NCBI GenBank assembly: GCA_963169645.1
Contig: CAUJCO010000013.1
Location: 386,142 to 450,141 of the forward strand
Direction of reading: 5' to 3'
DNA: 64,000 nt
Source of the DNA: Bacteroidota bacterium
Lineage (GTDB): Bacteria; Bacteroidota; Bacteroidia; Chitinophagales; JADIYW01
In this document: positions 368 through 3,327 of the stretch, piece by piece
Layout of the letters: every line of letters begins with the position of its first letter
Numbering within the stretch: position 1 is the stretch's first letter
Program-made: the position numbers and the translations under genes
The notes under the pieces: generated by a model
Seen by the model: the letters and a program-made list of their open reading frames with translations, nothing else
What the model was told of the DNA's origin: nothing
Database searches by the model: none

Positions 368-994
368 ATGCAAGCAATCCTCTACACAGCACCAACAGAA
401 ATTGAAAACGAAATAGAAATAATTTCTACATTAATGGATGTTGGTGTAGATTATCTTTATATCAGAAAACCGGAATTAGATGATTTTTCTTTGGTAGATT
501 TTATGGAAAAACTTCCGGAAAAATATTGGAAACAATGTATTTCTACTTCGCTCATCATCACCAAAGAATTTGACTTAGGTGGTTATCATTTCACACGAGA
601 AATCTTACAAAAAAACACAGCTTACAACAACAAAATTCTGGATTGGCTGCATGCAAACTATAAAATATCTTCTATTTCTGCACACCATATTGATGATATC
701 AAAAAATACGATGATCAATTTAATCACATCATAGTATCACCTATATTCAAAAGTATTTCTAAAGAAAACCATCATAATAATTGGAATTTTGATGAATTAA
801 GTTTAATTCTATCTCAATATAAATCCTCTAAAAAATTTGCAATCGGTGGAATAGAAGCGGATGTTCAGAAAATCAATATCGTAAAAAAATGTAACTTTGA
901 TGGTATTGGCATTTTAGGTGCAATTTGGAACGAGCCACAAAATGCCATCGAACAATACAAAAAAATTGAACAACAGATTAATAATGCCAAATAA
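368..994 (+). CDS. Thiamine phosphate synthase-like protein (TenI/ThiE family)
   Basis: The 208-residue product has the TIM-barrel landmarks of the ThiE/TenI family in order: YIRKPELD where ThiE has QLRxK, GYHFTRE, SAHHIDDI, SPIFKSISK in the phosphate-binding region, and AIGGIE plus GIGILGA at the C-terminus. Several residues differ from canonical ThiE, so a TenI-like role (thiazole tautomerase) or a degenerate ThiE is possible. A second, more canonical ThiE lies at 2683-3327. The gene follows the preceding frame by 2 bp and overlaps thiD by 11 bp, which points to one mRNA. No TPP riboswitch is visible, but the operon's 5' end is outside the window. Confidence 0.82.
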   Translation: MQAILYTAPTEIENEIEIISTLMDVGVDYLYIRKPELDDFSLVDFMEKLPEKYWKQCISTSLIITKEFDLGGYHFTREILQKNTAYNNKILDWLHANYKISSISAHHIDDIKKYDDQFNHIIVSPIFKSISKENHHNNWNFDELSLILSQYKSSKKFAIGGIEADVQKINIVKKCNFDGIGILGAIWNEPQNAIEQYKKIEQQINNAK

Positions 995-1742
995 AAACAG
1001 ACCATACGTTTTATCTATTGCAGGTTACGATGCCAGTGCCGGCGCCGGCGTGTTGGCAGATGTAAAAACGATGGAAAACATTGGCGTGTATGGATTGGCC
1101 GTAACCACTTGCATTACCTATCAGAACGATGATAAATTTGAAGGCATTCATTGGCTAAGCAAGAAGAAAATAAAAAACCAACTTTATCCAATTTTAGAAA
1201 AATATCAAATCGAATTTGTTAAGATTGGATTGATAGAAAATTTGGAACTTTTATCTGAACTAATACAATTCTTATTGACCTATAATCCAGGCATAAAAAT
1301 AATTTGGGATCCGATTTTACGCGCTTCCGCAGGCTTTGATTTTCACAAAAAAATGTCGAAAAAATTAGTTCATTCCATTTTACAGCAGATTTATTTTATT
1401 ACGCCAAATTGGAATGAAGTAGAATTATTATCTCAAGAGAAAGATGTCGTTGTAGGTGCTGAAAAATTAGCACAAAAATGCAATGTCTATTTAAAAGGTG
1501 GGCACAACATTGAAACGCCAGCAACCGATATGATTTGGATACAACAAAAATTAGACATCTTACATCCAACTGCAATTACAGAACTTAGCAAGCATGGCAC
1601 CGGATGTGTATTATCTTCGGCACTGGCAGCCTTTTTAGCACTCGGCAATACTACTCACAAAGCGTGTGAGCTGGCAAAAGCGTACACCTATCAATTTTTA
1701 GTTAGTAATAAAAACAACTTGGGTTATCATTCTATTGTTTGA
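984..1742 (+). CDS. thiD: Hydroxymethylpyrimidine/phosphomethylpyrimidine kinase
   Basis: ThiD phosphorylates HMP and HMP-P to give HMP-PP, the pyrimidine half of thiamine phosphate. The N-terminus has the ribokinase-family signature SIAGYDASAGAG (usually SIAGxDxSGGAG). The C-terminus has the anion-hole motif HGTGCVLSSA. I take the ATG at 984 (252 residues, a normal length); the same frame is open back to 918, but that adds an unconserved leader inside the upstream gene. It overlaps the TenI-like gene by 11 bp, so the two are probably translationally coupled. The 3' end overlaps the convergent RES toxin gene by 11 bp. Confidence 0.93.
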   Translation: MPNKNRPYVLSIAGYDASAGAGVLADVKTMENIGVYGLAVTTCITYQNDDKFEGIHWLSKKKIKNQLYPILEKYQIEFVKIGLIENLELLSELIQFLLTYNPGIKIIWDPILRASAGFDFHKKMSKKLVHSILQQIYFITPNWNEVELLSQEKDVVVGAEKLAQKCNVYLKGGHNIETPATDMIWIQQKLDILHPTAITELSKHGTGCVLSSALAAFLALGNTTHKACELAKAYTYQFLVSNKNNLGYHSIV

Positions 1743-2178
1743 TGCGCGTATCAAACAAAAATGGCTCAATTGCTTTTAATTTCACTTTCTTAAAATTGCG
1801 ATGTTGTGTATTGATAAGATAATTAAATTCATTCGGAATAATCACACTCGGTACTTGCAGAACCAAACTTTCTTGCCGATAAAACCAATCATCTCCTAAA
1901 TATCTACAAATATGTTCGTGGTCAAATTGTTGCCAATTTTTCGGCAAATCCGTTGGTTTTATTTTCTCTATTCGTTCTGTATTCGGAATTTCTATTACCA
2001 TCGTTTGAAATAAATCATTCAAACCTTCGCCACTTCTATGTACTACATTTTCTAAGCAAGCCAAGGCTCGCGAGGCTGCTGTATATAGCACTTTCACACC
2101 ATGACTATTCCATCTCGCTTCAATACCGGAAGCTTGTAAGGTGGCAAATCTCTCTAAGGTAATTCTATAAACCAACAT
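1732..2178 (-). CDS. RES-domain toxin (NAD+-degrading family)
   Basis: The 148-residue product fits the RES family, named for conserved Arg, Glu and Ser. Visible are YRIT near the N-terminus, RWNSHG then VLYTA, LENVVH, and near the C-terminus VPSVIIP followed by NYLINTQH and F. Characterised RES toxins deplete cellular NAD+. The ATG at 2178 lies 1 bp after the stop of the Xre-type antitoxin gene, the usual antitoxin-then-toxin order. It is convergent with thiD and overlaps its 3' end. The pair sits inside a run of thiamine genes, so it was probably acquired. All family landmarks are present, so it looks intact. Confidence 0.9.
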   Translation of the reverse strand: MLVYRITLERFATLQASGIEARWNSHGVKVLYTAASRALACLENVVHRSGEGLNDLFQTMVIEIPNTERIEKIKPTDLPKNWQQFDHEHICRYLGDDWFYRQESLVLQVPSVIIPNEFNYLINTQHRNFKKVKLKAIEPFLFDTRIKQ

Positions 2179-2179
2179 A

Positions 2180-2614
2180 CTAAGCTAATGCACCAAAGGC
2201 AATTCGTTGAAGCTGATTAATTACTAAGTTAATACCGCTAATAGTATTCAAAATTTGTTCGGGAATTTTATTTCCTAAACCATAAGCCGGTTTTTGCAGC
2301 CATTGCTTAAAGTTTTCTGTGGTGCCAAAAACTTCTTTTCCTACTTTATAGAGCTGTTCTATTTTTAAAACAAACTCTGTTTGTGTAGCTGATAAGATGT
2401 TGTCTTGTTGCTGATATCGTTGTATAGATTTAGTGGAAATACCCATAAAACCTGCCCAATCATGGATAGAGATATCGTATCTATCCGATAATTTATTAAG
2501 ATATTGAATAGGAATGCCGGAATGAGAATGTGCAATAACGGTATATTCTGTAGCAGGCTCATTTAAAATAGAGGCTGACTCATCAGCAACTTTATATCTT
2601 TTTTCTTTTCCCAT
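2180..2614 (-). CDS. Xre/MbcA/ParS-type antitoxin of the RES toxin
   Basis: This 144-residue protein has an Xre-like helix-turn-helix in the N-terminal half (around GFMGISTKSIQRYQ) and a DUF2384-type C-terminal toxin-binding region (EVFGTTENFKQWL, then QILNTISGINLVINQL). Such proteins neutralise the RES toxin and repress their own promoter. I choose the ATG at 2614. The longer frame begins with a TTG at 2647 that instead looks like the -33 promoter element: TTG, 19 nt, then TAACTTTG at 2618-2625. That box ends 3 nt before the ATG, so the transcript may be leaderless. Two 9-bp repeats upstream are the likely operator. Confidence 0.9.
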   Translation of the reverse strand: MGKEKRYKVADESASILNEPATEYTVIAHSHSGIPIQYLNKLSDRYDISIHDWAGFMGISTKSIQRYQQQDNILSATQTEFVLKIEQLYKVGKEVFGTTENFKQWLQKPAYGLGNKIPEQILNTISGINLVINQLQRIAFGALA

Positions 2615-2617
2615 ACT

Positions 2618-2625
2618 CAAAGTTA
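2618..2625 (-). promoter_or_regulatory. -7 box of the antitoxin-toxin promoter
   Basis: TAACTTTG on the minus strand matches the Bacteroidota -7 consensus TAnnTTTG, with a TTG 19 nt upstream (2645-2647). The ATG of the antitoxin follows after only three bases, so transcription should start at or beside the start codon. Confidence 0.65.
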
Positions 2626-2627
2626 AT

Positions 2628-2657
2628 ACTTTTGTCCTAAATTTCAAGACTTTTGTC
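2628..2657 (-). promoter_or_regulatory. Candidate antitoxin operator: two direct repeats 21 bp apart
   Basis: The 9-mer GACAAAAGT (minus strand) occurs at 2628-2636 and again at 2649-2657, a start-to-start distance of 21 bp, two helical turns. The first copy lies between the -33 and -7 elements of the antitoxin promoter. The second overlaps the TTG (2653-2655) that could serve the divergent thiE promoter. The position suits binding of the Xre antitoxin, alone or with RES toxin. The repeats are seen directly; their role as operator is inference. Confidence 0.6.
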
Positions 2658-2671
2658 TATTTTTTTTCAAT

Positions 2672-2679
2672 TATTTTTG
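2672..2679 (+). promoter_or_regulatory. -7 box of the thiE promoter
   Basis: TATTTTTG fits TAnnTTTG and ends three bases before the thiE ATG at 2683, mirroring the divergent antitoxin promoter. A TTG lies 16 nt upstream at 2653-2655, slightly closer than the usual spacing, inside the second operator repeat. The tract is T-rich, so a chance match is possible. Confidence 0.5.
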
Positions 2680-2682
2680 TAT

Positions 2683-3327
2683 ATGATTCATCGATTCCAA
2701 TATCTTACACAAGATGTAGATTCCATATCGCATCAAGAATTAGCGGAAATTGCGTGTAAAAATGGCATTCGATGGTTGCAATTGCGTGTAAAAAATAAAC
2801 CATTTGACACCTACTTATCCATTGCAAATGATGTAAAAAAGATATGTAATAAATGGAATTGCATTTTAATTATAAATGACAATGTTGAAATATGCAAAGC
2901 AATTGACGCACACGGTGTGCATCTCGGAAAAAATGACATGGTAATAGCTGAAGCCAGAAAAATAGTTGGTAGCAACAAGATAATCGGAGGCACAGCAAAT
3001 ACAATTGAAGACATTGAACGTATTGAAAAACAAGGTATAGATTACATTGGATTAGGTCCTTATAAATTTACCAACACGAAAGAAAATCTTTCAAGCGTCA
3101 TTGGTTTAGATGGATATCAAAAGATATTGCATTCTACCATATACAACATCAAAAAACCTGTAATTGCCATTGGCGGAATTCAACTAACCGACATTAAACC
3201 ATTAATGAATACGGGTATTCATGGCATTGCAGTTTCTTCAGCCATCAATCTATCTACTAAGAAGGAAGAAACTATCAGTGCGTTTTTAAAGCATTTTTCT
3301 GCAAAAGATACATCTCACATTTACTAA
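2683..3327 (+). CDS. thiE: Thiamine phosphate synthase
   Basis: ThiE joins HMP-PP and thiazole phosphate to make thiamine phosphate. The 214-residue product carries the canonical motifs: LRVKNK near residue 40, INDNVEIC then HGVHLGKND, GTANT, GLGPYKFTNTKEN at the pyrophosphate site, and AIGGI. I take the ATG at 2683; the frame is open from 2653, but that part is promoter and operator sequence. The gene is cut off from the upstream thi genes by the minus-strand RES/Xre pair and so appears to have its own promoter. Its 3' end overlaps the convergent membrane-protein gene by 53 bp. Confidence 0.92.
   Translation: MIHRFQYLTQDVDSISHQELAEIACKNGIRWLQLRVKNKPFDTYLSIANDVKKICNKWNCILIINDNVEICKAIDAHGVHLGKNDMVIAEARKIVGSNKIIGGTANTIEDIERIEKQGIDYIGLGPYKFTNTKENLSSVIGLDGYQKILHSTIYNIKKPVIAIGGIQLTDIKPLMNTGIHGIAVSSAINLSTKKEETISAFLKHFSAKDTSHIY

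Follow-up and report, generated by a model that had tools for sequence, protein, structure and literature searches.

A predicted pair of Xre-RES operators, 21 bp apart, in the gap between a toxin-antitoxin operon and thiE in Bacteroidota

The Xre-RES complex of Pseudomonas putida is a 4:2 hexamer with two Xre dimers that represses its own operon; one dimer sits on an imperfect palindrome of its promoter, while contacts in the crystal, together with an AlphaFold 3 model, led to the proposal of a second site at a distance of about 20 bp (PMC12204516). NatR-NatT of Pseudomonas aeruginosa, of the same RES/Xre family as the pair studied here, also represses its own promoter as a 4:2 form and releases it on falling apart; its toxin depletes NAD (PMC11535050).

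The locus that we describe shares with P. putida Xre-RES (PDB 6gw6, 9r35) an xre-res operon, an HTH antitoxin with a DUF2384/MbcA-ParS C-terminal domain and a RES toxin, as well as an imperfectly palindromic promoter site with a second site, in P. putida a proposed one, about 20 bp away. However, the proteins are distant (phmmer E 0.00056 for our Xre against the 6gw6 antitoxin), the two sites are here near-identical copies whose constant pitch of 21/22 bp is visible in the sequence itself, and a divergent metabolic gene, thiE, shares the region. The solved structures nearest by sequence are ParST (6d0h) for the RES toxin (1.5e-22) and the RES/DUF2384 pair 8gug for Xre (3.3e-7). A literature search found no paper on a 21/22-bp rule in xre promoters or on the insertion of such a module into a riboswitch operon; these two findings, the rule being seen at many xre promoters within the phylum, are what the present analysis adds.

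The window, that is, the whole 64,000-nucleotide stretch of DNA analysed, comes from a genome that we call G000, and its relevant features are collected in Table 1. Xre scores 104 bits against NCBIfam NF049845 (cut-off 90) and RES 156 bits against NF049844 (cut-off 110); the toxin also matches the solved RES toxins 6d0h, 8gug and 6gw6, and its stretches RWN and VPSVI-P-E-N align with ParT. The toxin gene lies downstream of xre in the same operon, with 1 bp between them, and converges with thiD, whose last bases it overlaps. These domain and family matches identify xre-res as a type II RES/Xre toxin-antitoxin operon (ParST/MbcTA/NatRT), and from the known activity of the RES family a NAD-consuming or ADP-ribosylating toxicity, neutralised by Xre, would be expected. 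On the other side of the gap, thiE is the sole match of its kind in G000. Upstream of it, on the same strand, are a TPP riboswitch, thiC, a hypothetical gene, a TenI-like gene and thiD; the riboswitch, the only one of its type in G000, precedes thiC about 6 kb upstream of thiE. The TenI/ThiE-like protein scores far under both the thiE equivalog and the TenI cut-offs.

Table 1. Genes, promoter elements and candidate operators at the thi/xre-res locus, in positions of the 64,000-nucleotide window
Feature	Position	Strand	Description
TenI/ThiE-like gene of the thi operon	368-994	+	PF02581, 35 bits
thiD, HMP-P kinase	984-1742	+	PF08543; now the last gene of the TPP-riboswitch operon
res toxin, 148 aa	1732-2178	-	RES domain, ParT subfamily; PF08808
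xre antitoxin, 144 aa	2180-2614	-	Xre-like HTH and Xre/MbcA/ParS C-terminal domain; PF20432, PF09722
xre -7 box TAACTTTG	2618-2625	-	Ends 3 bases before ATG; TAnnTTTG kept in G003 and G005
Candidate operator O1 GACAAAAGTA	2627-2636	-	21 bp from O0; within the xre promoter spacer
Possible xre -33 element TTG	2645-2647	-	19 bases before the -7 box; TTA in G005
Candidate operator O0 GACAAAAGTC	2648-2657	-	Near-palindrome GAC----GTC; identical in G003 and G005
thiE -7 box TATTTTTG	2672-2679	+	Ends 3 bases before ATG; identical in G003 and G005
thiE, thiamine phosphate synthase, 214 aa	2683-3327	+	NF000736, 234 bits, cut-off 227

We compared gene order among related genomes. In five of them thiE follows thiD by about 9-33 bp with no toxin-antitoxin pair between, and in a sixth it lies within 74 bp of thiD, again with nothing between; in G000 and two further species of its genus, G003 and G005, res-xre stands between thiD and thiE in the opposite direction, which leaves thiE outside the riboswitch operon in G000. 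Two of the module-free genomes (G001 and G004) have in their TPP-riboswitch operon the same order tenI-thiD-thiE downstream of thiC as G000, but there thiE comes straight after thiD, where in G000 res-xre separates the two. The comparison thus shows an insertion of res-xre after thiD, by which thiE was separated from the riboswitch operon.

A tree of three joined thi proteins places the carriers in one group (support 0.945), which fits a single insertion. The single-gene trees differ from the joined tree, and the ThiE tree does not group the three carriers. Between G000 and G003, identity across window positions 368-3327 changes from 93% in ThiD to 77% in RES, 95% in Xre and 69% in ThiE; this, with the conflict among single-gene trees, makes recombination at the thi/TA locus probable. 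The inner part of res (about 1754-2113) of G000 is nearer to that of G005 than to that of G003, and this pattern of identity points to the toxin gene having recombined or exchanged alleles. At the thiD/res junction of G000, a hairpin (TTGTTTGAT/ATCAAACAA, window 1735-1758, -8.4 kcal/mol) is possibly a two-way terminator; it is present in G000 only, and no terminator between thiD and res is conserved.

The first-pass annotation of this DNA, made from its letters, had reported an exact repeat in the gap between xre (ATG at 2614, minus strand) and thiE (ATG at 2683, plus strand), and the repeat is there as described: GACAAAAGT occurs at 2628-2636 and 2649-2657, both on the minus strand and 21 bp apart. 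The window holds five copies of GACAAAAGT against 0.72 expected; 464 kb of G000 hold nine, of which only this pair lies within 60 bp, and a 21-bp-spaced pair with up to two mismatches is found once in the whole genome. A wider Xre regulon in G000, looked for as 21-bp pairs with at most two mismatches, thus gave only this one match, and 22-bp pairs matched only with three mismatches, no more commonly than in a reversed control.

The gap measures 68 bp in all three carriers, and 57 of its 68 positions are identical in all of them, against 25-42% of the third codon positions in the flanking xre, res, thiD and thiE (a comparison for which a binomial estimate was made). G003 and G005 have the repeats unaltered in all 18 bases and at the same 21-bp spacing, and both their -7 boxes still fit the TAnnTTTG consensus; the repeats thus persist in close homologues, one of the points on which the earlier reading had been staked. 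The exact arrangement GACAAAAGT-N12-GACAAAAGT is present once each in G000, G003, G005 and G004, always before xre; the G004 copy precedes a different and only distantly related xre (29% identity) at a locus apart from the thi genes.

Bacteroidota sigma-ABfr promoters carry a TTTG -33 element, and TAnnTTTG is the known Bacteroidetes -7 element (PMC7366714). That both promoters of the gap have TAnnTTTG ending three bases before ATG, as had been noted earlier, was borne out (TAACTTTG and TATTTTTG). Among 366 ORFs of G000 (those of the window plus 400 kb of the same contig), 19 have TAnnTTTG ending 3-5 bases before ATG where about two are expected from background, an enrichment of about nine times; the distance in xre and thiE is not coincidental. 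This promoter class suggests that leaderless transcripts are common in G000, and since xre and thiE belong to it, their transcripts would begin at or next to the start codon, a leaderless start in both cases. Because -33 elements are weak among G000 promoters of this class, the match upstream of thiE, a TTTTG contained in ACTTTTGTC 16 bases before the -7 box, is not relied on here. The in-frame TTG at 2653 is unlikely to serve as a start for thiE, because the -7 box would have transcription begin around the ATG, and the start codon of homologous ThiE genes lies there or close by (GTG in G005).

Taking into consideration that (i) a near-palindromic site is present in the antitoxin promoter (GACAAAAGTC/A; relatives' consensus GACAAATGTC), and (ii) a second site of the kind proposed for P. 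putida about 20 bp off is present as well, here at 21 bp; we hypothesize that a 4:2 Xre-RES hexamer would place one of its Xre dimers on each GACAAAAGT near-palindrome. O0 and O1, two helical turns apart, would then lie on one face of the DNA, and hexamer binding would repress xre-res, with the bound complex covering the xre spacer and reaching the xre -33 region.

Whether such pairs recur was addressed in 109 distinct xre upstream regions collected from an order-wide search; these promoters are related to one another, so that the counts are not independent. A motif-free repeat scan peaks at spacings of 21 (28 regions) and 22 (18 regions), with 1-12 regions at each other spacing from 6 to 60. 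Near-palindromic GACAAATGTC-like pairs are spaced by 21 in 35 promoters and by 22 in 15, in total 50 of 109, against 0-3 at other spacings and about 1.2 in shuffled sequence. In 37 of the 50, the two sites flank the -7 box, the inner one lying between this box and the start codon. O1 lies directly upstream of the xre -7 box, as the first site does in those 37; the window's clade and some flavobacteria have the whole pair upstream of the -7 box, one step of 21 bp further out.

When GTDB species genomes were scanned for GACAAAAGT pairs with 9-15 bases between them, at least 131 matches came up, at least 53 of them with 12 bases. Among the matches listed, nine have xre just downstream, all with 12 or 13 bases between the copies (21/22 bp spacing), against none of the 59 pairs at other spacings; many of the listed matches with a 12-base gap and no xre belong to tandem repeats, fall within coding sequence or stand alone. 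The search for such pairs upstream of related xre-res operons that the first-pass annotation had proposed has found them at 21/22 bp, as GACAAATGTC-like pairs in the order set and as GACAAAAGT pairs among the GTDB matches listed.

Six promoters carry the operator GTAAATTTAC in copies 22 bp apart, and in four of the six the Xre recognition helix reads SISSMQKK; GACA-type operators go mostly with recognition helices ending in QRY. These four loci represent a second operator class. The pattern supports a co-variation of recognition helix and operator sequence across Xre proteins, and comparison shows the 21/22-bp pair to be general and tied to Xre.

Two near-palindromes 21 bp apart are what a 4:2 hexamer would need, which makes autoregulation well supported, and the repeats are very probably the operator by which Xre-RES controls xre-res. 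The earlier proposal that Xre binds here thus stands as far as its own operon is concerned, on the conservation in G003 and G005, the 50 of 109 promoters, the GTDB matches listed and the co-variation of helix and operator; binding by the Xre of G000 itself is what we infer from these comparisons. From the P. putida structure alone it was not settled that the hexamer's second Xre dimer has its own DNA site, about 20 bp off. Dozens of xre promoters, distant from one another, have a pair at strictly 21/22 bp, and the operator changes with the helix; this is evolutionary support for that second site, and the pairs give exact sites to test.

The other half of the proposal, that the bound complex could also repress thiE, is an even call in our judgement. 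In our reading a RES/Xre operon was inserted between thiD and thiE in an ancestor of part of the genus; the insertion cut thiE from the TPP-riboswitch operon and left it with a short, probably leaderless promoter of its own, the -33 region of which is the upstream site O0. O0 overlaps the thiE -33 region, at about -26 to -35 relative to the gene, and abuts the possible -33 TTG of xre. Xre-RES on O0 would repress thiE together with xre-res, and both would be freed when the hexamer falls apart. Taken jointly, the operator pair, the inserted module and a thiE promoter repressed at the upstream site form a reading that we consider rather probable. A physiological use of this control, and a link between NAD+ and thiamine, may be supposed, the latter from the known activity of the RES family.

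It is possible, though short of probable, that the pair serves autoregulation only, and that the adjoining thiE is not measurably repressed or is expressed mainly by read-through from the riboswitch operon. Elsewhere in the phylum the same pair and spacing are found at xre promoters whose divergent neighbour is unrelated or missing; because flavobacterial xre promoters that have no thiE nearby also carry the pair in this register, its placement need not be an adaptation to thiE, and the idea that the upstream register is a special adaptation was dropped as unsupported. Since no terminator is conserved between thiD and res, read-through from thiD, antisense over res-xre, could express thiE; it would, however, have about 940 bp of convergent operon to cross. 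Against a role in autoregulation only, O0 occupies a position where a bound repressor normally hinders polymerase, and the thiE -7 box is kept in all three species.

That the repeats instead act without Xre, either as plus-strand -33 elements (TTTTG) of a promoter or in the control of thiamine genes, is very improbable: the TTTTG before the thiE -7 box would suit this idea, but xre promoters with no thi gene anywhere near also have the pair, and a thiamine-linked motif was ruled out because the thiE of relatives without the toxin-antitoxin module has no such repeat upstream. A chance repeat, which the AT-rich DNA of G000 (34% GC) might be thought to favour, is ruled out by the conservation and the order-wide spacing peak, and we give it the least credence.

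If repression of thiE by Xre-RES holds, the state of the toxin-antitoxin pair would switch thiamine phosphate synthesis. We advance tentatively, at somewhat under an even chance, the broader proposal that paired Xre-dimer sites at 21/22 bp are a general DNA code of the Xre-RES hexamer in Bacteroidota, and that in this genus the insertion moved the only thiE from TPP-riboswitch control to that of a NAD-linked toxin-antitoxin repressor. The locus is a natural case of a toxin-antitoxin module that entered a riboswitch operon and brought a biosynthetic gene the one promoter that can be seen for it, and such insertion is a route by which these modules can become wired into metabolism.

Other xre-res operons have divergent neighbours of their own. 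At four flavobacterial loci, xre-res is divergent from a conserved gene for a protein of about 275 aa, with a 21-bp operator pair in the gap; the protein looks like a voltage-gated potassium channel (TTVGYGD filter), and a search for its gene in the order set gave no match. In one further family, the divergent neighbour of xre-res is a single conserved gene, by eye an ABC-2 type permease in appearance, and the linkage is found in at least eight loci.
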